From a virus: DNA of 20,655 bases. The position numbers were made by a program, and so were the translations under genes. The notes beneath the pieces are model-generated. The model saw nothing but the letters and a program-made list of their open reading frames with translations. It ran no database searches and had not been told where the DNA came from. How positions within the stretch are numbered: position 1 is the stretch's first letter; the number at the start of each line of letters is the position of its first letter. Location: positions 1 through 20,655 of IMG/VR virus record IMGVR_UViG_3300042879_000665; one strand, given 5' to 3'. Below, one piece after another: positions 2-20,655 of the stretch.

Positions 2-88
2 ATCGGCCAGTTCCACAAATCCAATGCGATGGTGATTACCGATATGTCGCTGCTTAAGCAGTTGAACAAAGGGGGGTTAGTGCGATGA
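2..88 (+). CDS. 3' end of an unidentified gene (partial)
   Basis: Reading frame 2 is open from the left edge to a TGA at 86-88 and gives 28 residues ending in NKGGLVR. The stop overlaps the next start as ATGA (85-88), the junction type used throughout this window, so this is probably the true C-terminus of a gene beginning outside the window. The fragment is too short to assign a function. Confidence 0.6.
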   Translation: MGQFHKSNAMVITDMSLLKQLNKGGLVR

Positions 89-291
89 ATGAGAAAATAG
101 TGGTTCACGTAGTTGAGTGGTTGGTCGATGACACGGCGACACTCTTATCTGTCCATACTGACGCAGAGTTGGCGAGGGAAGCCATAACTGCGTATCTAAA
201 TGACACGCCCTATTTTGGTGGTGCGTTAAGTCACTACCGGATCAGACCGATGGTGCTGAATTCGACTGGATTGAATGGGGCTGAGTTATGA
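85..291 (+). CDS. Hypothetical phage protein, 68 aa
   Basis: I do not recognise this 68-residue acidic protein. It starts at ATG 85, preceded by a strong purine run (AAAGGGGGG, 68-76). It overlaps the gene before it and the gene after it by 4 nt (ATGA), so translation of the three is probably coupled. A beta-rich start (IVVHVVEWLV) is followed by a helix (DAELAREAITAYL). No cysteines, signal peptide or membrane segment are visible. The overlaps, start context and plus-strand setting support a real gene. Confidence 0.65.
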   Translation: MNEKIVVHVVEWLVDDTATLLSVHTDAELAREAITAYLNDTPYFGGALSHYRIRPMVLNSTGLNGAEL

Positions 292-398
292 CAGACGACG
301 AATTCGCATCGTTTATTTGGAGAGTTTACCGCCGTGGGGTTATCCATGGGGGGATGGTGGCTGTAGCAACCGCTGCAGTCTGGTTGTTCGTTAAATAA
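288..398 (+). CDS. Tiny single-pass membrane protein, 36 aa
   Basis: ATG 288 overlaps the preceding TGA as ATGA, and the frame runs to TAA 396-398. It encodes an N-terminal soluble or basic part (MTDDEFASFIWRVYRRG) and a hydrophobic stretch at about residues 21-35 (GGMVAVATAAVWLFV) ending in a single Lys, the shape of a small single-pass membrane protein. The gene would otherwise leave an unexplained gap of about 115 nt in a fully packed region. Its function is unknown. Small membrane proteins in phage early regions sometimes act on host envelope or exclusion functions, but nothing specific can be claimed here. Confidence 0.5.
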   Translation: MTDDEFASFIWRVYRRGVIHGGMVAVATAAVWLFVK

Positions 399-408
399 GG
401 AGATATTG

Positions 409-591
409 ATGAAGCGTTTATTCGTACTGAGGTACGGCAAAGGTGGAAGTCTGGTACGTGATGACGACGGTACGCCGTTGTATTTCGGCAACAAGGCTGA
501 AGCCAAGAGGATAAGAGACACGATCAAGGATGCCGTAGTTTCATTCGGCCCTGATCACAACAAGTTCAATCAACAGCATGGAGTGAAGTGA
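409..591 (+). CDS. Hypothetical small phage protein with VSFGPDH motif, 60 aa
   Basis: I place the start at ATG 409, not at the in-frame TTG 406, because AAGGAGA at 398-404 is well spaced for it. The 60-residue product has a beta-strand start (MKRLFVLRYG), a hairpin-like DDDGTPLYF, an Lys/Arg-rich helix (NKAEAKRIRDTI) and a conserved-looking VSFGPDH near residues 45-51. This layout resembles small unnamed proteins that recur in tailed phages, but I cannot give a function. The next gene starts 2 nt after its stop. Confidence 0.65.
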   Translation: MKRLFVLRYGKGGSLVRDDDGTPLYFGNKAEAKRIRDTIKDAVVSFGPDHNKFNQQHGVK

Positions 592-592
592 A

Positions 593-1591
593 ATGCGACC
601 GACATTACTGAAAGATACTCTCAAGTCTTTACATGCCAAGTTACGTACGGTGGCTATTGAAGGCCCACCTGGGGGTGGCAAGACTACTGTAGTACGAGAG
701 ACTGCCAAGGAACTGGATAAGCACTATATCGAACGGCACGTACCGACGATGCTTGTCGAGGACTTTGGTGTTCCCGATATGATGAGTGCTGCACAGTCCT
801 TCGGGTACAAGATTCCAGAGTGGTTCCCTGCCAAGGGTAGCAAGTGGGACGATGGACGCGGCGGTATCCTGTGCTTCGATGATCGCAACCAAGCAAGTGC
901 CGATATCCAGAAGGTAATCGCTAACATTCAACAAGCACGTAACTTGCACGGTGTGCCAATGGCCGATGGGTGGCAGGTTATTGGTACTGGCAATCGCCAG
1001 TCTGATAGAGCCGGTGCTAATCGTGTGCTGTCTCACCTTCGTGATCGTGAGACTGTGTATGAGTATGAGACTCACCTTGATGACTGGACTGCGTGGGCTA
1101 TTGATCACAACGTACAGCCTGAGGTTATTTCATTCATCCGCTTCCGTAGTGGGTTGTTGCATGACTTCGATTCACAGCGTGACAAGAATCCTACGCCACG
1201 ATCATGGGTCGAGGGTGTTAGTGATGTGATGGGACTGGTTCCACCGGAGGCTGAATACGAGACTTTCAAGGGTGCTGTTGGCGATGGTGCTGCTGCAGAG
1301 TTCACCGGCTACTTGCGTATCTATCGGAAGTTGCCTAACCCCGATGGCATCTTGCTGAATCCTGACAAGGGTGAAGTGCCGACTGATCCTGCGACGTTGT
1401 ATGCCTTGTGTGGTTCGCTTGCACAGCGTTGTAGTGAGGCCAACTTCGATAGGGCTTGCACGTACTTCGAACGTATGCCGCCAGAGTTTAGTGTGCTTGC
1501 AGTATCTCATGCGGTACGACGCAACCCTGATCTTGCTAACACGCAAGCGTTTATTAAGTGGAGTGTGAAGCACCAGACGGTGCTGTTCTAA
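593..1591 (+). CDS. MoxR-type AAA+ ATPase
   Basis: This 332-residue protein has the core of a MoxR/CobS-like AAA+ ATPase. The Walker A motif is GPPGGGKT at residues 24-31. Walker B is GILCFDD at 91-97, with Asp at the position that is usually the catalytic Glu. Sensor 1 is GTGNR with Asn134, and an arginine-finger-like HLRDR lies at about 149-152. MoxR ATPases generally work with a VWA-domain partner to remodel or activate target proteins, sometimes by metal insertion. A VWA protein lies two genes downstream (2689-3843), so this is probably its motor. The C-terminal half (residues 180-332) is helical and not recognised. The start follows the previous stop by 2 nt. Cobaltochelatase CobS is unlikely, as no cobalamin gene is nearby. 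Confidence 0.85.
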   Translation: MRPTLLKDTLKSLHAKLRTVAIEGPPGGGKTTVVRETAKELDKHYIERHVPTMLVEDFGVPDMMSAAQSFGYKIPEWFPAKGSKWDDGRGGILCFDDRNQASADIQKVIANIQQARNLHGVPMADGWQVIGTGNRQSDRAGANRVLSHLRDRETVYEYETHLDDWTAWAIDHNVQPEVISFIRFRSGLLHDFDSQRDKNPTPRSWVEGVSDVMGLVPPEAEYETFKGAVGDGAAAEFTGYLRIYRKLPNPDGILLNPDKGEVPTDPATLYALCGSLAQRCSEANFDRACTYFERMPPEFSVLAVSHAVRRNPDLANTQAFIKWSVKHQTVLF

Positions 1592-1616
1592 CAACAACGA
1601 CAGAGGAGTAACGACG

Positions 1617-2465
1617 ATGAATCTGAACGACAAAGCCCTGCTTGTCTCGCTGAATATCGGCGGATGGGCAGGACGCAAGTTAGACAAGCGAGTGACCAAG
1701 GATGTAGCCGTGGCTAACAATGTGTCCACTAGTGCAGGACGCTATAACAAGTCTCTGCTTCCTAACTGCACCATGCTCGAGAACATCCATAGCAAAGCAG
1801 GACTCATACGGACTGAGTTCTATGATAACACTCTGCCTTGGAATCTTGAGGGTGTGCAGTTGCTTCCGACCAGTAACTACCTTGGGTTTATGACTCAGTT
1901 CCGACGCAATCGGACTGACTGGGAATCATTGGTCGATCAGTTTGTGGATGCTTACCCTGCACTACGGGCTGATGCACAGAACAGTCTTGGCCCTTTGTAT
2001 TGTGACTCTGACTATCCAAGCCAAGACGATATGCGTAGCAAGTTCTACATGGATATCAGCGTTATGCCTATGCCGAGTGCTGACTTCCGTGTGCAGTTGT
2101 CATCCGATGAGGTAGCACGTATCCGCTTGCAGGTTGAGGAGCAAGTGAAGTCTGCTCAGTCTGCTGCCATGCAGGACTTGTGGGCTAGGGTCTACGACAA
2201 GGTGAAACATATTGCTGAGAAGTGTGCTGATCCCAAGGCGATCTTTAGAGACAGCATGATCGACAATGCCCGCGACTTGTGTGAGTTGCTGCCGAGACTG
2301 AACTTCGCTGATGACCCACGACTGGAAGCCATGCGACAGGAGATCGAAAGCAAGTTGCTTAAGAATCCTGAGATTCTGCGATTGCATCCAGAGATTCGAC
2401 GAGATACAGCGGCCGATGCCAAGGCCATCATGGACAAGATGTCCGCTCTTATGGGAGGTATGTGA
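1617..2465 (+). CDS. Hypothetical protein of the MoxR/VWA cassette, 282 aa (possibly DUF3150-like)
   Basis: ATG 1617 follows a good ribosome site (GAGGAG, about 1602-1607). The N-terminal stretch VSLNIGGWAGRKLDKRVT, then TEFYDNTLPWNL, LLPTSNYLGFM, a Tyr/Trp-rich middle (DQFVDAYPALRADA, LGPLYCDSDYPS) and a long helical C-terminus (about 160-282) are reminiscent of the DUF3150 proteins that I recall beside CobS/CobT-like genes in phages. I could not verify this. It lacks recognisable catalytic motifs, a signal peptide and membrane segments. Its place between the ATPase and the VWA protein, with an overlapping downstream stop/start (TGATG), suggests a subunit or substrate adaptor of the same complex. 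That role is inference from position. Confidence 0.75.
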   Translation: MNLNDKALLVSLNIGGWAGRKLDKRVTKDVAVANNVSTSAGRYNKSLLPNCTMLENIHSKAGLIRTEFYDNTLPWNLEGVQLLPTSNYLGFMTQFRRNRTDWESLVDQFVDAYPALRADAQNSLGPLYCDSDYPSQDDMRSKFYMDISVMPMPSADFRVQLSSDEVARIRLQVEEQVKSAQSAAMQDLWARVYDKVKHIAEKCADPKAIFRDSMIDNARDLCELLPRLNFADDPRLEAMRQEIESKLLKNPEILRLHPEIRRDTAADAKAIMDKMSALMGGM

Positions 2466-2692
2466 TGAACGAACAAGAGCGATTGAAGCAAAAGATGGAG
2501 GCGTTAAGAGAAAACCCGATTGATACTTCCAAGCGGCATATTCATCTGCTCTTTGATCATTACCTGATATGGGTGAAGGATCGCAATACCTACGTTGTCA
2601 ATGGAGGACAGCGAGGTGCGGAAGAATTTGAAGCAAAGGTAAACGAGTTAATAGGCAAAGTGATTGAACTACAACAGGAGAAGTCACAATGA
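2465..2692 (+). CDS. Hypothetical small protein, 75 aa
   Basis: I choose ATG 2465, which overlaps the previous TGA by 1 nt, over the in-frame GTG 2462. The upstream GGGAGG (2453-2458) serves it. The product has a charged helical start (NEQERLKQKMEALREN), a middle with HIHLLFDHYLIWVKDRNTYVV and a C-terminal amphipathic helix (EEFEAKVNELIGKVIELQQE) that could form a coiled coil. It overlaps the VWA-zincin gene by 4 nt (ATGA), so it probably works with the MoxR/VWA cassette. No family is recognised. Confidence 0.65.
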   Translation: MNEQERLKQKMEALRENPIDTSKRHIHLLFDHYLIWVKDRNTYVVNGGQRGAEEFEAKVNELIGKVIELQQEKSQ

Positions 2693-3843
2693 CTAGCGTA
2701 ATGCCACGACGGAAGGAGCAGGTAACCCCTGCTCCGCTTACCCCACAGCGTGAAGCCAAGATCAAAATGCGACTGGCTAAAGCCAAGACTAACCTTGTGC
2801 TTGAGCATCCATTCGTTGGCTCTATTGCATTGGGCTTGCCCTATTACATCGACCAGTCGATACCGACTGCAGCAACCAACGGTAAGTGCATCAAGTTTAA
2901 CCCTGACTTTGTTGACCAACTGACGGATGAGGAGTTGAAATTCTTGGTAGCACATGAGTGCTTCCACCCAATGTTTGAACACAACTTCCGTCGAGGTGAG
3001 CGTGACCCACGCAAGTGGAACCAAGCCGGTGACTACATCATCAACAAGCATCTGACCGATGAGAAAATTGGCAAGATGCCAGAAGGTGGATTGCTCAACG
3101 ATGGTATCTATCAGGCTGGCGGCGGTACTACGGATGGAATCTATAACATCCTGCCAGATAATCCTGACGGTGATGATCCGCTTGATGACTGCGAGGATGG
3201 CGAGGGTACTCCTGCCGAGAAGGAGCAAGCCCGTAACGAATGGAAGGTCAAGGTTGCACAAGCCGCACAAGCGGCCAAGATGATGGGCAAGTTGTCTGCC
3301 AATATGCAGCGGCTAGTCGGTGAGGTATTGCAACCCAAGGTTGACTGGCGTGATGTGCTACGCCGGTTTATTGAGAAGGCCAAAAACGACGAGCGTAGTT
3401 TCGCTAGACCTAACCGTAGGTTTGTGCAGCAGGGTATGTATCTGCCAACTATTACCGGCGAGGTGATGGGCGAGGTTGCCTTCTGCGTAGATATGTCTGG
3501 CTCTATTGACGAGGCTACGGCTAACCAGTTTGCTGCCGAGGTGCGTAATGTGTTTGAGGATGCACGACCATCCAAGTTGCATATTATTTTCTTCAGCCAT
3601 GAGGTATGTGCGTACGACTTGATCGAACGTGACGGTGACTTTGAATTCAACCCTCGCGGCGGCGGTGGTACAGCATTCAGCCCATGCTTCAAGTATATGC
3701 AGGATAACGATATCAACCCTGTCGCTTGCATCTTCTTGACTGACTTGTGCTGTGACGACTTTGGAAATCAACCGGATTATCCGGTGCTGTGGGTTAGTAC
3801 CGAGAATGGTACTGCGCCCTTTGGTGAAGTGGTGTTGATGTAA
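2689..3843 (+). CDS. Zincin-like metallopeptidase fused to a VWA domain (DUF2201-type)
   Basis: This 384-residue protein combines two recognisable parts. The N-terminal region carries VAHECFHPMFEH at residues 87-98, which contains the zincin HExxH motif (His89, Glu90, His93), followed by WNQAGDYIIN with Asp115 as a possible third metal ligand. This matches the putative metallopeptidase domain known as DUF2201_N. An acidic Asp/Glu/Gly linker (about 155-185) leads to a VWA-like domain from about 260, with the full MIDAS set: DMSGS (Asp268, Ser270, Ser272), Thr328 in GGGGT and Asp352 in LTDL. VWA proteins of this kind pair with MoxR ATPases, and one lies at 593-1591. The start overlaps the previous stop by 4 nt. 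The substrate is unknown. Both active-site sets look intact. Confidence 0.85.
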   Translation: MTSVMPRRKEQVTPAPLTPQREAKIKMRLAKAKTNLVLEHPFVGSIALGLPYYIDQSIPTAATNGKCIKFNPDFVDQLTDEELKFLVAHECFHPMFEHNFRRGERDPRKWNQAGDYIINKHLTDEKIGKMPEGGLLNDGIYQAGGGTTDGIYNILPDNPDGDDPLDDCEDGEGTPAEKEQARNEWKVKVAQAAQAAKMMGKLSANMQRLVGEVLQPKVDWRDVLRRFIEKAKNDERSFARPNRRFVQQGMYLPTITGEVMGEVAFCVDMSGSIDEATANQFAAEVRNVFEDARPSKLHIIFFSHEVCAYDLIERDGDFEFNPRGGGGTAFSPCFKYMQDNDINPVACIFLTDLCCDDFGNQPDYPVLWVSTENGTAPFGEVVLM

Positions 3844-3863
3844 TTATTACGGAGGTAACAACA

Positions 3864-4532
3864 ATGGCTACTGTACGATTTAGTAATGAGTTGAAAGAGA
3901 ACATTCTTGAACGAGCGAAAGCCCCGTTTGATAAGCGCAATATCGAAATCAAAAAGATACCTGTCGAGGAAGGTTTGTTCGATCTTATCTACAAGCGTGC
4001 GCTTGGGGATTGGTTTGCACCTGTCCAGAACTTACCCGATGGTTTTATGGAGGTGTACCAACAGTTCACCCTGACTCGCGTAGTTGTTCCAAACCATCCT
4101 GATATCTCTTTGCATTACACGTTTCAGTTACCGCAGCCTGTCCGTTGGGTGCAGAACTACACGGGTATCAGCAACCGAGCAGTACAAGATGGATGGGGTA
4201 GCACTAACTTCAAGTACATCGCTGACCTTAACAACGAGGACGATGCGCGTATCCACAATGTCTTTCTCCACATGAACGACCTGCTTCGACAGAATCAGGA
4301 GCGCAAGGAGAAGTTTGTGAATGGTGTGAGTATTTTGATGGAGACTCACACTACCCTTGCACCTGCACTCAAAGCGTGGCCTGCACTCTGGGACTTGCTG
4401 CCGCAGTCAACCAAGGACAAACATCTTGAGGTGAAGGAGAAGTCTGCAGCGCAGGAGAAGAAGGCAGTCATTGAACAACTGGACTTGGCTTCCATGACTG
4501 CAACTGTGGTGGTCAACAAGATGGTGCGCTAG
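3864..4532 (+). CDS. Hypothetical protein, 222 aa
   Basis: ATG 3864 is preceded by an excellent Shine-Dalgarno (ACGGAGG, about 3849-3855). Residues 1-130 are mixed alpha/beta, with a helical N-terminus (NELKENILERAKAPFDKRNI) and a strand-rich middle (EVYQQFTLTRVVV, SLHYTFQL). The C-terminal 90 residues are charged helices (NQERKEKF, KDKHLEVKEKSAAQEKKA). The N-terminal layout, with a short LPDGF-type segment, loosely recalls the phage Nmad5-type family, but I cannot support that assignment. It is the last large member of the cassette that starts at 593 and overlaps the next small gene by 1 nt. Confidence 0.7.
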   Translation: MATVRFSNELKENILERAKAPFDKRNIEIKKIPVEEGLFDLIYKRALGDWFAPVQNLPDGFMEVYQQFTLTRVVVPNHPDISLHYTFQLPQPVRWVQNYTGISNRAVQDGWGSTNFKYIADLNNEDDARIHNVFLHMNDLLRQNQERKEKFVNGVSILMETHTTLAPALKAWPALWDLLPQSTKDKHLEVKEKSAAQEKKAVIEQLDLASMTATVVVNKMVR

Positions 4533-4687
4533 TGGACGAGGACGATACTGCTGCTCACCATGAGCAGCGGCAACAAGAACTCCGACTCAAGGAAGAGTTG
4601 GAGCGTGAGTTACATGGAGATAAGTGGAAGTTGCTTGAGTTGCAACTAGAAGAAGTTATGTCTGAATTCTTTAAGAGGAAAGACTGA
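4532..4687 (+). CDS. Small charged coiled-coil protein with GTG start, 51 aa
   Basis: The frame opens at GTG 4532, which overlaps the previous TAG by 1 nt (TAGTG), and closes at TGA 4685-4687, which overlaps the next ATG by 1 nt. The 51-residue product is almost entirely Glu, Gln, Arg, Lys and Leu, with heptad-like spacing (QQELRLKEELERELHG, WKLLELQLEEVMSEFF), so a continuous amphipathic or coiled-coil helix is likely. It fills what would otherwise be a 154-nt gap with 1-nt junctions on both sides, the strongest argument that it is real. Its function is unknown. It could be a multimerisation or adaptor peptide. Confidence 0.55.
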   Translation: MDEDDTAAHHEQRQQELRLKEELERELHGDKWKLLELQLEEVMSEFFKRKD

Positions 4688-5532
4688 TGGACTACACCGA
4701 ATACACAAGACGAATGTTCAACGATTCACAAATACATTCCTACACAGGTATAGATAAATACTTTGCAACCTGCCGCAATCCAGAGAAGGGCAAGCCGCTT
4801 AAATCATGGGCACGTATCTTTAAGCGTGGTGATGACTACGTTATCTGCTGCGATGGCGTCGATGTGCTGAAGATAACACCTGATAATAAGTTGACGTTTC
4901 TTATCGACGGTGTGCAGGGTCGAACGATTGGACAGACACTAGCATCTAGCCTACATCGTGCCGTCCCTATTGCATGGTCAAGAGTTAGCACTAACCGCTA
5001 TCGTGTGATCCACCTACTTGCCGCAGAGAAAACAGGTAAGTCTTTGTGGCAGTCACTCAAGACTGCGCCCGAGTTGTTTGAGGGTATCACCTTTGACCTG
5101 ACGACAGGCGAGTGTGTCAACGCACGTAAAGATCTTAAGGAATCTATCCGCCCCGAGATACGCAAGGAGTGGCTACGCAAACTGCGTGTGTTCAAACGCA
5201 ACATCAAGTTGCGCGCCAAGATGGGTGTGATTGATGGTCTGATTAAACAAATGAGAGAGGAGCGGGATAACTCAGGCAACGGGTTTCGTAGACCAGACTG
5301 GAACTCCCCGCCGTGGTTTGATCTACTGTATAATTCAATCTCCAACGAAGAATGCTCCACGGAATTACTCCGAGGGCTGATTGCAAGCAGCGGCTATGCC
5401 GCATGGTATATGTCCATGCCTACCTCTAATCATGTGGTGGGCTTGAGCGATACCCTTTTGAATCAGTTAAGCATTGCTTTACGTGAGAAGTTTGGTGTGT
5501 TTGATATTCAACCGAGAGGCAAAGCAGCATGA
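4687..5532 (+). CDS. Hypothetical phage protein, 281 aa
   Basis: ATG 4687 follows AAGAGGAAAG and overlaps the previous stop by 1 nt. The first 110 residues look like a mixed alpha/beta domain (SWARIFKRGDDYVICCDGVDVLKI, LTFLIDG). The middle is rich in Arg/Lys helices (about 150-195: KEWLRKLRVFKRNIKLRAKM), which suggests nucleic-acid or acidic-surface contact. The C-terminal part is helical with several Trp and Tyr residues. There is no metal-binding cluster, Walker motif, signal peptide or membrane helix. I do not recognise the family. It overlaps the DUF3310 gene by 4 nt. Confidence 0.75.
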   Translation: MDYTEYTRRMFNDSQIHSYTGIDKYFATCRNPEKGKPLKSWARIFKRGDDYVICCDGVDVLKITPDNKLTFLIDGVQGRTIGQTLASSLHRAVPIAWSRVSTNRYRVIHLLAAEKTGKSLWQSLKTAPELFEGITFDLTTGECVNARKDLKESIRPEIRKEWLRKLRVFKRNIKLRAKMGVIDGLIKQMREERDNSGNGFRRPDWNSPPWFDLLYNSISNEECSTELLRGLIASSGYAAWYMSMPTSNHVVGLSDTLLNQLSIALREKFGVFDIQPRGKAA

Positions 5533-5951
5533 CAAAGCAAGAAAAGATTGTTGATCTAATCAGCCAAGGCTATTCAGTACATGACGTAGCCAAGATGGTT
5601 AAGGTCAAACCTAATTATGTTTACCATTCCCTGTGGATACAACGTAAGAAAAAGAAAGCATCTGAACCTGTGAACTACACCGAGCAAATGCAAAGAGCGA
5701 ATGAACTCACGGACTACTGCGTTAATACAGAGGATAGGTCTGTCATTGAACACCCGAGTCACTACACCATAGGTGGTATCGAAACGTGGGACTTCATCGA
5801 AGCGAAGCGTTTGAACTACAACCTTGGCAGCGTGGTCAAATACATCAGCCGCGCAGACTACAAGGGGCATGATATTCAAGACCTTAAGAAGGCACGACAA
5901 TTCTTGGATCGGGAGATCGCACGCCGTGAAGGTGGCGAAGTTGCCTTTTGA
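5529..5951 (+). CDS. HTH-DUF3310 protein (T7 gp1.7-like domain)
   Basis: The C-terminal half (about residues 73-135) is a clear DUF3310 domain: HPSHYTIGGIETWDFIEAK, then LGSVVKYISRADYKG and DLKKARQFLDREI. The family is widespread in phages, and its best-known member is the T7 gp1.7 nucleotide kinase. The N-terminal 40 residues (IVDLISQGYSVHDVAKMVKV, PNYVYHSLW) read as a helix-turn-helix, followed by a basic RKKKK segment. So the protein may combine DNA binding with a nucleotide-metabolism domain. It overlaps the genes on both sides by 4 nt (ATGA at 5529, TTGA at 5948). The DUF3310 call is firm. Kinase activity is inferred from distant relatives only. Confidence 0.85.
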   Translation: MTKQEKIVDLISQGYSVHDVAKMVKVKPNYVYHSLWIQRKKKKASEPVNYTEQMQRANELTDYCVNTEDRSVIEHPSHYTIGGIETWDFIEAKRLNYNLGSVVKYISRADYKGHDIQDLKKARQFLDREIARREGGEVAF

Positions 5952-6061
5952 GGTGGCTCATCGAACTGTACCGCAGGGTAATACAAAGACGCCATGATGA
6001 GTGGCGTCGAGTACCTAACCCAGAGTGGGCAGCAAAGCGTGGATGGAGGGATTACTGGTGA
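5948..6061 (+). CDS. Possible tiny basic Trp-rich protein with TTG start, 37 aa
   Basis: After the DUF3310 stop there is an open frame with only one usable start, TTG 5948, which overlaps that stop as TTGA. It ends at TGA 6059-6061, overlapping the next GTG as GTGA. The 37 residues are strongly basic and aromatic (LRWLIELYRRVIQRRHDEW, then WAAKRGWRDYW), unlike the noise expected from random sequence. No strong Shine-Dalgarno is well spaced (GAAGG lies about 15 nt upstream), so expression would depend on coupling. An overlapping ATG frame at 5995 encodes a less protein-like peptide and seems less likely. Confidence 0.4.
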   Translation: MRWLIELYRRVIQRRHDEWRRVPNPEWAAKRGWRDYW

Positions 6062-6276
6062 CACTAGATGACATATCCCCTGCCGGTGCGTGGCGTAAGG
6101 AGTGGGATGCCAGATCACACACCGATAAAGAATACCGAGAGAAGATCAGGGAACTGCGTGATCGTAACCGTGACTATGCCGCCGAGATATATCGGCTACG
6201 TGGTTTGATCGCAGACCTTGAGGAAGAACTAGCCATAGTTCACAAACATATTTACGGAGGCGAGAAGCGTGATTAG
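6058..6276 (+). CDS. Coiled-coil hypothetical protein, 72 aa
   Basis: The frame is open from GTG 6025, but I place the start at GTG 6058. A strong GGAGGG (about 6045-6050) sits correctly before it, and it overlaps the previous stop as GTGA. The product begins MTLDDISPAGAW, followed by a long charged helix with heptad character (about 25-65: YREKIRELRDRNRDYAAEI, LIADLEEELAIV), so a coiled coil is likely. It overlaps the next gene by 8 nt. No known family is recognised. Confidence 0.6.
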   Translation: MTLDDISPAGAWRKEWDARSHTDKEYREKIRELRDRNRDYAAEIYRLRGLIADLEEELAIVHKHIYGGEKRD

Positions 6277-6460
6277 GAAACACGAATACAAGTATGATCG
6301 TATGCAAGACGAGATCAACCTACTTAAGCAGGAGGTTTCGGAACTAGAGCATACACTTGCAAGGCGTGAGGGTGAGTCATTCATCATGTCCCTCATGTGG
6401 TTCTTTATTGGTTCAGCATTGACGGCTGCGCTTCTATCTCTGTGGTGCATCAATGCTTGA
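6269..6460 (+). CDS. Coiled-coil plus transmembrane small protein, 63 aa
   Basis: GTG 6269 follows ACGGAGGCG at good spacing. Residues 8-37 form a charged, heptad-patterned helix (DRMQDEINLLKQEVSELEH). Residues 38-59 form one strong transmembrane helix (SFIMSLMWFFIGSALTAALL), followed by a four- or five-residue tail. By topology this is a tail-anchored protein with its coiled coil in the cytoplasm. The position, among early genes and far from the lysis genes, argues against a classic spanin or holin. A membrane anchor for phage replication or a superinfection or host-envelope role is possible but unproven. It overlaps both neighbours by 8 nt. Confidence 0.6.
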   Translation: MIRKHEYKYDRMQDEINLLKQEVSELEHTLARREGESFIMSLMWFFIGSALTAALLSLWCINA

Positions 6461-6647
6461 GAAACAAGACACCATAGATGCCGCTAACCTAGTACGTGAA
6501 CTGCGTGGGTGGGCGAAGATACATCCTGCTAGTCCCATGACTGATTGCTTAAACGAATCAGCAGCCATCATCGAAAAGTTTCTTTCTGAGAGACAGACGA
6601 TGGAGCAGTACATTTCAGAACGTGAGTGGCTGCACCGTGAAGGTTAG
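6453..6647 (+). CDS. Hypothetical small helical protein, 64 aa
   Basis: ATG 6453 overlaps the previous stop by 8 nt. The product is mainly helical and acidic (TIDAANLVRELRGWAKIHP, DCLNESAAIIEKFLSERQ), with a single Cys and no membrane segment. The general pattern (two helices around a short Pro-rich turn, ending in a Trp-containing tail) resembles many small phage proteins of unknown role. I do not recognise a named family. It overlaps the start region of the zinc-finger-like gene. Confidence 0.6.
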   Translation: MLEKQDTIDAANLVRELRGWAKIHPASPMTDCLNESAAIIEKFLSERQTMEQYISEREWLHREG

Positions 6648-6819
6648 CCAGATACGTAGGTGTACCGAGTGCAAGCGTACGTTTGTCGGAGCCGAGTCAT
6701 TCAGACAGCACCGCATTATCGGCATGAGTTGTCGGTCTGAAGAAGCATTGAAGGCAGCGGGGTTTGCCGAGACACCGAAGGGGTACAAACAACAACGACC
6801 TTGGAGGACTGGCACATGA
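6637..6819 (+). CDS. Small C2HC zinc-finger-like protein, 60 aa
   Basis: Two GTG starts are possible, 6622 and 6637. I prefer 6637 because GAGTGG (6625-6630) lies about 6 nt before it, whereas the nearest purine run for 6622 is too far away. The product has Cys9-x2-Cys12 (RCTECKRTF), His25 in SFRQHR and Cys32, a plausible C2HC zinc site, followed by a basic tail with Lys, Gln and Arg. Small zinc-binding proteins of this shape are common in phages and usually contact nucleic acid or host proteins, but no role can be given. The stop overlaps the next ATG as ATGA. Confidence 0.6.
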   Translation: MKVSQIRRCTECKRTFVGAESFRQHRIIGMSCRSEEALKAAGFAETPKGYKQQRPWRTGT

Positions 6820-17322: not shown

Positions 17323-17773
17323 ACACGCGCCCAACAAACCAGAACGACAGAATCATATTCAACACGGCCATATCATCTACGCCCCACATGGAGGTCAGCA
17401 CCTGCCGCCAGTCGCCGTTCTGTTCTAGCGCGATCAGGAAGCTGGCAACCTTCACCGTAGCGTACGCAATAACAAATAAATACGTGACGAACGGTCGGAC
17501 TAGTGCAGAGATAGCCGCCACCCACTTACCTGCGGCACGGGCCGTAGCAGATTGCTCCTTAAAAGCCTCACCAATGGCATCTACCTCAGCCATAGTCATC
17601 TGCGCCTCGGTCTGGCGCATGGCAATCTCACCCCTGACTTGGGCAAACCGCATCTCTGCTTCGACCATGGCAAGCTCATGCTTGCGTTCGTTCTTCTGAT
17701 CAAAGAACTTAAGTGCCTCAGGTGCTAGGCGTAATAGCCCACCAAATACGCCACCTAATAACGTCTCAATCAT
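17306..17773 (-). CDS. Holin-like membrane protein (3TM type)
   Basis: The 155-residue product has a hydrophobic N-terminus (about residues 1-18, MIETLLGGVFGGLLRL), a charged coiled-coil region (28-80, rich in Glu, Lys, Met and Ala), and two membrane helices (about 93-115, RPFVTYLFVIAYATVKVASF; and 132-149, VDDMAVLNMILSFWFVGRV). This resembles the three-segment holins found in phages and gene transfer agents. Holins form membrane lesions that release the endolysin. The gene directly precedes the lysozyme, overlapping it, and follows the large upstream gene with an ATGA overlap (17770-17773), a classic lysis order. The long soluble coiled coil is unusual for simple holins but seen in this family. 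I judge the family assignment from layout only. Confidence 0.75.
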   Translation of the reverse strand: MIETLLGGVFGGLLRLAPEALKFFDQKNERKHELAMVEAEMRFAQVRGEIAMRQTEAQMTMAEVDAIGEAFKEQSATARAAGKWVAAISALVRPFVTYLFVIAYATVKVASFLIALEQNGDWRQVLTSMWGVDDMAVLNMILSFWFVGRVYERTR

Positions 17774-20655
17774 TGCAGTTCTCCCGGTTCAATACCGTAG
17801 ATTTCCAGCAGTTCCAAAGTCTCAGGACGCACGTTCTTGGGTGCAGCCTTGAGGAAACGCATGGCAGTCGGACGCGCTGCTTCTCGGGCAGCACGGTTAG
17901 CAGACCGGATGAAGTTGTTGATCTCCAGTCCAGTACCCGCAGCCGCTTCGTTCCAGTTACGCACGTTCTCTAGCGTCTGTTCCATGGCGTCAGTGTCACC
18001 AGCCAAACGCGCCTTAACGTATGCCGCTGTGTAGTCAGCCTTGATCGCCTTAGCGTAATCGCTCACGTACTTGGACAAGCGGACGATATCGTTCTGCTGA
18101 GTAGCAATGGCAGGATAGAAACCAAGGAACCTTGCCAGAGCCACATGAGTGCCAACATCTTCAGACACCACCTGACCGCGAGTGTTAGTGATGCGACCGT
18201 CACTCAGGTACGCAGTGCCATCACCCACCGCACGCATCAGCGCAATCGGAGAGTCACGCAGCAACGAGTTGAGTGATGTGGTGTCATCGCGCAACCCGAC
18301 AGTCTCTGCACCATACTTGGCTAGGCCACCAGCCATACCAACAAGACCAGAGATACCACCGACCACCGGGCCAGCAAAGTTCTCCAGTTCTCGGATCGGG
18401 TCTGCACCAGCACGGAACGCTCCAGTCAACGGCAGCAAGTCACCCATACCCAAGCGGCTCGACAACGTAGCACCAGTGGTTCTATCCAACACACCACGCA
18501 TCAGGTACGGGGTCATGCCCGGAGCCACGGCATCAATCCACTCGGAGAGTTGTTTCTCTACGCTTGGCGTACGCAACCCAAGTTTCTGCAGGATAGTATC
18601 CAGAACATCCATCAAGTCTTCTGCAAACGGAAGCCCCTTGATACCGCTGACCAGCAGCAAGAAGCCCAGCATCAACAGCCGACCTTCTGCAGGCATGGCT
18701 CTGAGTAACTGCACGGTGATGATCACGAACTGCTTGTACATAAAGACGTACTGCAGCACGTTGCCGCGTGCCATCTCAGGGCGGTTAAACATGGCGTACT
18801 CGCCTTGCGAGGTGTTCACCGCTGTGCGTGCAGCCTCCGCTGCTTCGCGTTCGATACGGTTCTGATCCGTAATCCCTTCAGCCTGCAGTCGCTCCTTCTC
18901 CAAGCGGTACGCAGCCAGAGCCGTTGCACGACGGTTGATCTGTTCCGTGTAAGAGAACATTCCCATCCACAACTTAATGGCTGCTTGCGCTCGGTTGGAG
19001 AAGACCTTACCGCGTGCTGTACCCACAAGTGCATTGAACTGAGCCGCCTGCAGTGTGCCTTCTTCCGTCTGTTGGAACAGGAACTCTGCTTCGTCTCGGG
19101 TCAAACCGTACTGCTCGTAGGTTCCTTCGGACAAAAGGTTCTGGATAAATTCACCATCGGCAAAGCCGGGGTTACCAATATCCTTGATGGCGTTCGAGAG
19201 TTGTGTGCTTGCCTTGGAGAACCCGTAGCCACCACCCACGCCAGTCTTTGGGTTGTAGAAGGAAAGATACGGCAGCGTGTTAGACGCAAGGGACGCCAAG
19301 TTAATGAACGCCGTGGCGACAGAACCACCCAACTGCATAAGCACGGTGGCCATCTTGATGGTTGAGCCAGTCTCTCCAGACAGCATATCTTCTGTGCTGT
19401 CCGTAATGTTTCCAGCTTCGCTATACCAACGGAGTACTTGCTTGGCTTCTTCGCGGTAGTCTTCACCACGACCAAGGGTCGGTACTTCCTTGCCATCAAT
19501 CTCGACGGTGTTCTCTCCAGCCGTCGCACGCATATACCTATACATATAAGCATATTGGTCGTACTCGCGTTGTGCGCGGGCGCGTTCCAGATCATTACGT
19601 GCGCTATCCACTGCAGCCTTCAACGACGCAAGTTTCTGCGGATCGCCAAGCCACAGGCTGTTGTTCAACAGGATATCGTCAAGCCGGTGCTTGAACAGTT
19701 TCTTGGCTGCTACGTGAGAAGTAGTTTCCAGATGTTCTGACACAGACCGGATAACATCTTTATCCCAGCCCGGAGTACCAGAGCGTTGCAGGTTCTTACG
19801 AGCGCGTTCGTTCTGGTTAGTCAGCGTGGTAACAATCCGCTCGCGGACTTCCGGAGTGATGTTCACGTTGAGTCGGTTAAGCACGTAGATGAACTCGTTA
19901 AAGTTCACGGCTTCAGTCAGGTCAGACGACTGGCGAACTCGGGATATCTCCGGACGCAACTTAACGGTGACTTCTTTACCGTCATCATCCAAGAAGGTCC
20001 ATGTGTTATCGCCACCGAACTCCTTCTCCAAATCCTCAGCAGTCTTGAGTGCTTCGCTACGGCTATCGAACTGGAAGTACGGCAGTGTGGCGCGTGTCGC
20101 CTCATCCAATCGAACCGCATTACCCTTGGAGTCGTAAGCAGCAAGACGTACTTGCTCAGTACCACGGCGGGTAAACGGAACGTAAGAACCAAGGATCGTA
20201 CGCTTGGCGTAGTAGTCAGCGTTCCTCGACTGCAGGTCAAACAAGAACAAGTCTCGGATGGCTTTCTGCATTGAGAAGGACTGACCTTCCTTGGCTTCCT
20301 TACTGCCAGTGATCTTCTGGCGCAGACTCGGAAGTGCAGCACGCAAGTCGTCGTACTCTGCCTTCTGGAATTCCTTCAGGTCTTCGACGATTTTCGGGTC
20401 AGCATCCGCTTCCTTCATCCAAACCTTGTACACGCTGTCGTTAAACAAGGCGCGACCAAAGGCAATGACGAATTCTTCCGAACGCTTGAGCGCATCTTTA
20501 TCCAACGCAACCGCAGCACTGGCAACGTCTTGACCAGCGTAACGCATACGCTTGTAGGCTTCTGCAGCCTTGCGGATAGCAGTCAAGTCATCATCAGTAA
20601 ATACGTTATTACCACGGCGCAGATCATTCAGTCGGTTGATAACGCGCTTGCCTTC
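17770..20655 (-). CDS. Large PLxRFG-type polyvalent phage protein, C-terminal part (5' end outside window)
   Basis: The reading frame stays open to the right edge, giving 961 residues without a start. A TTG at 20586 is internal: the codons above it continue in the same style (GKRVINRLNDLRRGNNVF). PFTRRG (20161-20178) in the context GSYVPFTRRGTEQVRL fits the PLxRFG signature, and GIKGLPFAED (about 18622-18651) with its hydrophobic surround fits the conserved C-terminal segment. Further hydrophobic stretches (SVATAFINLASLASNTLPYL; VGGISGLVGMAGGLAKYG) could contact membranes. PLxRFG domains occur at the ends of giant phage polyvalent proteins that are thought to be injected with the genome and to act against host defences. 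Enzymatic domains may lie beyond the window. A large virion or internal core protein is the alternative. Confidence 0.8.
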   Translation of the reverse strand, partial: EGKRVINRLNDLRRGNNVFTDDDLTAIRKAAEAYKRMRYAGQDVASAAVALDKDALKRSEEFVIAFGRALFNDSVYKVWMKEADADPKIVEDLKEFQKAEYDDLRAALPSLRQKITGSKEAKEGQSFSMQKAIRDLFLFDLQSRNADYYAKRTILGSYVPFTRRGTEQVRLAAYDSKGNAVRLDEATRATLPYFQFDSRSEALKTAEDLEKEFGGDNTWTFLDDDGKEVTVKLRPEISRVRQSSDLTEAVNFNEFIYVLNRLNVNITPEVRERIVTTLTNQNERARKNLQRSGTPGWDKDVIRSVSEHLETTSHVAAKKLFKHRLDDILLNNSLWLGDPQKLASLKAAVDSARNDLERARAQREYDQYAYMYRYMRATAGENTVEIDGKEVPTLGRGEDYREEAKQVLRWYSEAGNITDSTEDMLSGETGSTIKMATVLMQLGGSVATAFINLASLASNTLPYLSFYNPKTGVGGGYGFSKASTQLSNAIKDIGNPGFADGEFIQNLLSEGTYEQYGLTRDEAEFLFQQTEEGTLQAAQFNALVGTARGKVFSNRAQAAIKLWMGMFSYTEQINRRATALAAYRLEKERLQAEGITDQNRIEREAAEAARTAVNTSQGEYAMFNRPEMARGNVLQYVFMYKQFVIITVQLLRAMPAEGRLLMLGFLLLVSGIKGLPFAEDLMDVLDTILQKLGLRTPSVEKQLSEWIDAVAPGMTPYLMRGVLDRTTGATLSSRLGMGDLLPLTGAFRAGADPIRELENFAGPVVGGISGLVGMAGGLAKYGAETVGLRDDTTSLNSLLRDSPIALMRAVGDGTAYLSDGRITNTRGQVVSEDVGTHVALARFLGFYPAIATQQNDIVRLSKYVSDYAKAIKADYTAAYVKARLAGDTDAMEQTLENVRNWNEAAAGTGLEINNFIRSANRAAREAARPTAMRFLKAAPKNVRPETLELLEIYGIEPGELQ

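Follow-up and report, generated by a model that had tools for sequence, protein, structure and literature searches.

A MoxR ATPase, a DUF3150-like protein and a zincin-VWA protein encoded side by side in phages and on plasmids: a candidate early remodeling machine

What use would a phage have for a MoxR-type AAA+ ATPase and for a protein that joins a protease-like metal site to a VWA domain, both encoded next to its replication genes? The question is raised by the virus record IMGVR_UViG_3300042879_000665 of IMG/VR, a 20.7-kb sequence whose 20,655 nucleotides are the whole stretch analyzed here (the window). A first-pass annotation, made from the sequence alone, had marked six open reading frames (ORFs) between 593 and 4687; we rechecked the ORF list and these six genes against their coordinates, and all six are present where they had been placed, on the + strand. 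Our analysis centers on three of them, encoding a MoxR-clade ATPase, a DUF3150-like protein and a DUF2201 zincin-VWA protein, which occur in this order both in phages and on plasmids; with a probability of about one half, we read the aquatic-phage unit as an early three-component AAA+ remodeling machine carried by mobile DNA and common to plasmids.

Three proteins and their motifs

The 384-residue protein encoded at 2689-3843 (+) had been described as an intact HExxH site fused to a complete VWA MIDAS (metal ion-dependent adhesion site), and both halves of that description hold. It matches the Pfam families DUF2201_N (PF13203, 'putative metallopeptidase domain'; E 4.5e-47, 161 bits, cut-off 23.2) and DUF2201 (PF09967, VWA-like; E 5.7e-22, 79 bits, cut-off 26.4), both above cut-off and in that order, and phrog_1314 in PHROGs (1e-99). 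The N-terminal zincin-like domain carries H89-E-C-F-H93, H98 and N111xAxD115xxIN, and the C-terminal VWA domain carries the MIDAS residues D268-x-S270-x-S272, T328 and D352. Among 37 aligned VWA proteins, drawn from the window clade and five outside phages (MinM2, SBP1, phage G, phiFa and CRP-7), there is no variation at H89, E90, H93, H98, N111, D115 or the five MIDAS residues; H98 and D115 are candidates for the third zinc ligand. We rejected the 'HNH endonuclease' label that PHROGs and several N4-like records attach to phrog_1314 because the match to both DUF2201 domains is strong, and the label is also contradicted by schitovirus SBP1, where a real HNH_3 gene is the neighbor. Its presence on the DUF2201 protein in PHROGs, NC_055784, NC_023719 and many N4-like records looks like a propagated misannotation.

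The 332-residue protein encoded at 593-1591 (+) is a MoxR-type AAA+ ATPase, as the first-pass annotation had proposed: it scores above the Pfam cut-off for AAA_5 (26.3 bits, cut-off 22), matches phrog_1297 (E 1e-63) and keeps the AAA+ motifs, and the best PDB match of its profile is Midasin (E 1.6e-26). The motifs comprise Walker A GPPGGGKT, Walker B FDD, sensor-1 N134, sensor-2 R203 and a candidate arginine finger, R152; the Walker A, sensor and arginine columns are invariant in the ATPase alignment. The Walker B motif reads DD, with Asp where most AAA+ proteins have Glu, throughout the window clade and in the Burkholderiales plasmid ATPases, and DE in MinM2, Rhodovastum and SBP1.

The gene between these two (1617-2465, +) encodes a 282-residue protein that had been listed as unknown and that is a distant DUF3150 relative, outside the membership set by the Pfam threshold. 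The protein has no match to Pfam DUF3150 (PF11348) at E<1, and its nearest plasmid relative reaches 22.1 bits, below the cut-off of 24.9. In a profile-profile comparison, the 282-residue clade matches eight canonical DUF3150 proteins with E 1.9e-7 and a probability of 94 over 224 columns, and with E 1.3e-12 and a probability of 98 when intermediates are included; used on its own, the window-clade profile retrieves the plasmid homologues at E 1e-55 to 1e-84. A homologue in cyanophage MinM2 (30% identity over 97%, E 2e-29) is annotated as DUF3150, and its gene is placed between MoxR ATPase and VWA-like genes. The AlphaFold2 model, which shows mixed beta structure plus long helices (predicted local distance difference test, pLDDT, 79; predicted template modeling score, pTM, 0.51), resembles a viral DUF3150 protein in fold (E 3e-17); among solved structures there is no convincing relative by sequence or by fold. 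The position of the gene, between those for a MoxR-type ATPase and a VWA protein, is also the one that DUF3150 occupies on plasmids.

The three genes in phages and on plasmids

Viral contigs hold 98 distinct VWA-bearing loci, 54 of them flanked well enough on both sides, and the order ATPase-282-VWA is found in all 54. The same unit is found on plasmids, which does not support reading it as a phage-specific curiosity. For the nearer plasmid branch, represented by a DUF3150-like gene in 42 plasmid records, we compared the coordinates of the DUF3150 and DUF2201 genes by eye: the DUF2201 gene lies directly downstream on the same strand, at less than about 100 nucleotides, in 40 of the 42, the exceptions being one split DUF3150 gene and one plasmid, from Manganitrophus, without a VWA gene nearby. 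The latter carries genes for an AAA ATPase, DUF1257, DUF2997 and DUF3150 in a row at 1689-4711. An ATPase gene is upstream in every plasmid and genome locus scanned (17/17), at a distance of 3.6 kb in Simplicispira. A chromosomal origin was rejected: among 274 genomes of the class to which the Cupriavidus carrier belongs, only that carrier itself matched, and the unit therefore looks mobile.

The deeper branch, canonical DUF3150, is represented on 1139 plasmid records, of which 983 are typed as conjugative, and conjugative plasmids including pCAR1, IncC and IncT show the order MoxR/CbbQ-DUF3150-VWA. In the seven canonical-branch plasmids examined, the VWA gene always follows DUF3150 directly, an AAA/MoxR ATPase gene is just upstream in six (the IncC plasmid has an ATPase of unspecified type about 4 kb upstream), and genes for RecT and lambda exonuclease usually lie nearby. 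All seven VWA proteins carry an N-terminal HExxH at residues 57-64, and thus the combination of HExxH, VWA, DUF3150 and MoxR is present in both branches; the DxSGS motif is found in five of the seven. In the pCAR1 unit the ATPase is of the CbbQ_C kind, and the VWA part resembles NorD/CobT.

A role as a conjugation factor was considered for the IncT plasmid Rts1 and rejected. Every Rts1 gene except repA has been deleted and 32 genes whose deletion altered transfer have been named, and the accessible part of that report describes no MoxR, DUF3150 or VWA gene among those affecting transfer (PMC10838148); our triad was matched to the published ORF numbers by gene order only. The triad is located between RecT/exonuclease genes and thioredoxin-family/TraH genes, and in the Rts1 record (24030-27192) an IS2 copy breaks up its VWA gene. 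Since the VWA gene is interrupted, the Rts1 unit may already be dead, and the conjugation tests may not report on an intact one. Two further records carry related genes: Synechocystis pSYSA carries a two-gene MoxR and VWA-like unit without DUF3150 among PIN, HepT and GNAT genes (3964-6242), and NZ_CP110465, a 75-kb Acinetobacter sequence deposited as a plasmid, has genes for a phage-type RNA polymerase, an AAA ATPase, an HNH protein and a VWA-like protein in an N4-like order and may perhaps be a phage genome.

The unit in its phage setting

The first four genes had been described as one overlapping unit, followed by the other two, and the six as candidates to travel together in phage genomes; this is true in part. 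Overlaps of 4, 4 and 1 nucleotides join the ORFs of 282 and 76, 76 and 384, and 222 and 51 residues, respectively, but gaps of 25 and 20 nucleotides separate the ATPase gene from the 282-residue gene and the 384-residue gene from the 222-residue gene; a plausible ribosome-binding site precedes each of the six ORFs except the overlapping one of 51 residues. The genes do travel together, but the conserved set is not the six that were listed. The small 76-residue protein (2462-2692, +) is lineage-specific and no fixed part, with relatives in only 7 of 160 loci, and the 51-residue charged helical ORF (4532-4687, +), likewise lineage-specific, has relatives in only 9, while a 281-residue protein encoded at 4687-5532 (+) has relatives in 141 of the 160 in the same order and is the fixed fifth gene. 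The conserved phage unit is thus ATPase-282-VWA-222-281, an exact order found in 49 of the 54 well-flanked loci.

The 222-residue protein (3864-4532, +), previously listed as unknown, is probably Nmad5-like, on the strength of its relatives' Pfam matches and its fold matches. It scores 16.3 bits against Nmad5 (PF18757), below the gathering score of 27, but 42 of its 62 relatives match Nmad5 at E<0.1, the best at E 1.2e-7. Its AlphaFold2 model (pLDDT 89) weakly matches phage proteins named as nucleotide modification associated (about E 1e-3) and strongly matches one unnamed phage protein. The 222-residue gene is a fixed neighbor in the window phage clade only, being absent from the plasmid triads; like the 281-residue gene, whose product has no Pfam family, it belongs to the fixed set of the phage unit alone, and MinM2 has no counterpart of either. 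The next gene of the early block (5529-5951, +) encodes a DUF3310 protein (PF11753, E 3.7e-16) with an N-terminal helix-turn-helix-like stretch, and a DUF3310 gene stands beside the unit in 18 loci. Counts of promoter and terminator sites were no higher than in shuffled sequence, and a search of Rfam gave no match.

The first-pass annotation placed the unit ahead of the replication genes, and this is borne out by the nearest relative, of 47 kb, whose shared unit genes are 91-99% identical to those of the window (85% for the 76-residue one). There the unit shares its strand with the replication genes and is followed by genes for DNA polymerase, a nuclease, a helicase and DUF927; the late genes, among them tail-spike-like and internal virion proteins, are on the opposite strand, and the unit is at the end away from them. 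A second relative, of 57 kb, has an SU10-like portal, Terminase_3 and a capsid protein. Membership of the Schitoviridae would call for a giant virion RNA polymerase and the N4 core set; the nearest relative encodes a 2225-residue protein (71-6748) whose PHROG matches are without a function label; the window encodes its last 961 residues at 17770-20655 (-), and its C-terminal 500 residues match phrog_11358, a family of 3431 residues with no assigned function.

Possible function and comparison with known systems

In NorQ-NorD, a VWA finger inserts in the AAA+ pore; activity requires the MIDAS, which presumably holds the target (PMC13036017, PMC9976466). By analogy, a hexamer of the MoxR ATPase would drive the DUF2201 co-chaperone by pulling or twisting, with a finger of the VWA domain contacting the ATPase pore and the MIDAS metal site gripping the target protein. 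The fused zincin-like domain might then be positioned to cut, open or clamp that target, and DUF3150 might be a third subunit dedicated to the machine, probably as a helical adaptor that connects the ATPase to the VWA protein or reaches towards the target. The target itself would be a non-virion protein that matters soon after DNA entry, whether of the host, the replisome or recombination. We infer early action from the gene position, from plasmid carriers that need no virion, and from phage N4, where the ATPase and VWA relatives gp24 and gp25 are middle genes (PMC4193335).

A different role has been proposed for the MoxR and metallopeptidase-vWA pair of group 2.2 jumbo phages, namely virion assembly (Iyer et al. 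2021, PMC7824862); applied here, the pair would fold and process structural proteins during assembly or maturation, with an analogy in Acidianus two-tailed virus. A MoxR-like ATPase is among the proteins co-purified with a Staphylococcus jumbo phage, a result that its authors say needs confirmation (PMC10638138), and roseophage genes for some virion proteins lie close to the homologues of gp24/gp25 (PMC4193335). A virion role is nevertheless distinctly unlikely, because the three genes are also carried by conjugative plasmids, which form no virions, and because in the window clade the unit belongs to the replication block, with the late genes on the other strand, in keeping with the middle-gene status of the N4 pair. 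This argument weakens the proposal, although phages could use the machine on another target.

Early position and carriage by both phages and conjugative plasmids, which alike face host defenses, would also suit a device for counter-defense or host takeover that binds host proteins of one class, a defense complex for example, and cuts or unfolds them as the element enters. The retained zincin motif fits such a task, as does the adjacent Nmad5-like gene of the phage unit, given that in Dhillonvirus a point mutation in nmad5 allows escape from Tmn defense and its deletion does not (PMC11846954). We consider it unlikely: the core status of the pair in N4-like phages across hosts fits housekeeping better than a lineage-specific weapon, and the link to defense in PADLOC is limited to weak P-loop matches, on which basis we also rejected the unit as a known anti-phage defense system. 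That the HExxH binds metal without cutting, and that the unit inserts metal or a cofactor or activates a complex as NorQ-NorD, CobS-CobT and CbbQ-CbbO do, is very doubtful. Most MoxR-VWA pairs whose function is known serve as activators or insert a metal, and the ATPase and VWA types on pCAR1 point the same way, but no recurrent metalloenzyme or cofactor gene stands beside the unit in the phages or plasmids examined, and an invariant HExxH with further invariant H, N and D residues in DUF2201 is typical of a catalytic zincin.

Our preferred reading of the unit as an early remodeling machine has points against it as well. The Asp-for-Glu replacement in Walker B of the window clade might slow hydrolysis; the 282-residue protein is only remotely homologous to canonical DUF3150, and its model has a pTM of 0.51; and the third subunit is not universal, since schitovirus SBP1, Thermus phage phiFa, phage G and CRP-7 have the ATPase and VWA genes but no detectable DUF3150. 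A broader proposal, which we offer tentatively and which may well not hold, is that MoxR, DUF3150 and the HExxH-VWA protein form one ancient ternary machine of conjugative plasmids and diverse phages that helps newly entered DNA to establish by unfolding and cutting a conserved host protein or defense complex. In these lineages, DUF3150 would then be an obligate subunit that confers specificity. The ATPase and VWA genes belong to the core set of N4-like phages and have no assigned function; if they have a third partner and share their origin with plasmid units, the question becomes testable, as both a laboratory plasmid and coliphage N4 would offer the same machine for study. The working hypothesis thereby moves from virion assembly to an early function common to phages and plasmids.

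Several of the components are already known: MoxR-VWA chaperones, the phage metallopeptidase-vWA fusion, the N4 core pair, and MoxR and VWA genes on pCAR1. The protease-VWA fusion, which had been singled out, does not appear to be new: it is a core gene of N4-like phages together with its ATPase (PMC4193335, PMC7650795) and has also been described in jumbo phages (PMC7824862). A full-text search of the open-license literature found four papers for DUF2201 and no paper naming the DUF3150 family. In that literature we did not find DUF3150 as a recurring third gene, HExxH in the VWA proteins of conjugative plasmids, or the link between plasmid and phage units, of which an earlier description elsewhere is possible.

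Among the known systems, gp24 (AAA+ ATPase) and gp25 (vWFA) of the Schitoviridae belong to the same families as the window pair (phrog_1297 and phrog_1314) and likewise lie in an early/middle region; unlike the window, SBP1 has no DUF3150 between or beside the pair and has its HNH gene between the two. The jumbo-phage pair shares with the window a MoxR ATPase and a VWA protein with an N-terminal metallopeptidase but is a two-part system, for which the accessible part of the source reports neither a third subunit nor occurrence on plasmids (PMC7824862). The vWA-MoxR ternary conflict systems resemble the window in having three components, and their VWA part at times carries a fused peptidase (Kaur et al. 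2020, PMC7159879); their third component is VMAP or iSTAND, mostly with trypsin- or caspase-like effectors and in multicellular bacteria, whereas the window and plasmid units have a DUF3150-like third component and a zincin, no search aimed at VMAP or iSTAND having been made. NorQ-NorD, CbbQ-CbbO and RavA-ViaA likewise pair a MoxR AAA+ protein, a hexamer there and presumably so in the window, with a MIDAS-bearing VWA co-chaperone; unlike the window unit, they are two-part, their VWA partner has no zincin, and their cellular substrates are defined. On pCAR1 and its relatives, MoxR and VWA genes had been noted, though not DUF3150 or HExxH (PMC2642839). Their ATPase is of the CbbQ_C type and their VWA protein is NorD/CobT-like, with more than 600 residues, rather than DUF2201, but ORF100-103 of pCAR1 and the counterparts in R478, Rts1, SXT and R391 have the same ATPase-DUF3150-VWA order and the same N-terminal HExxH as the window.

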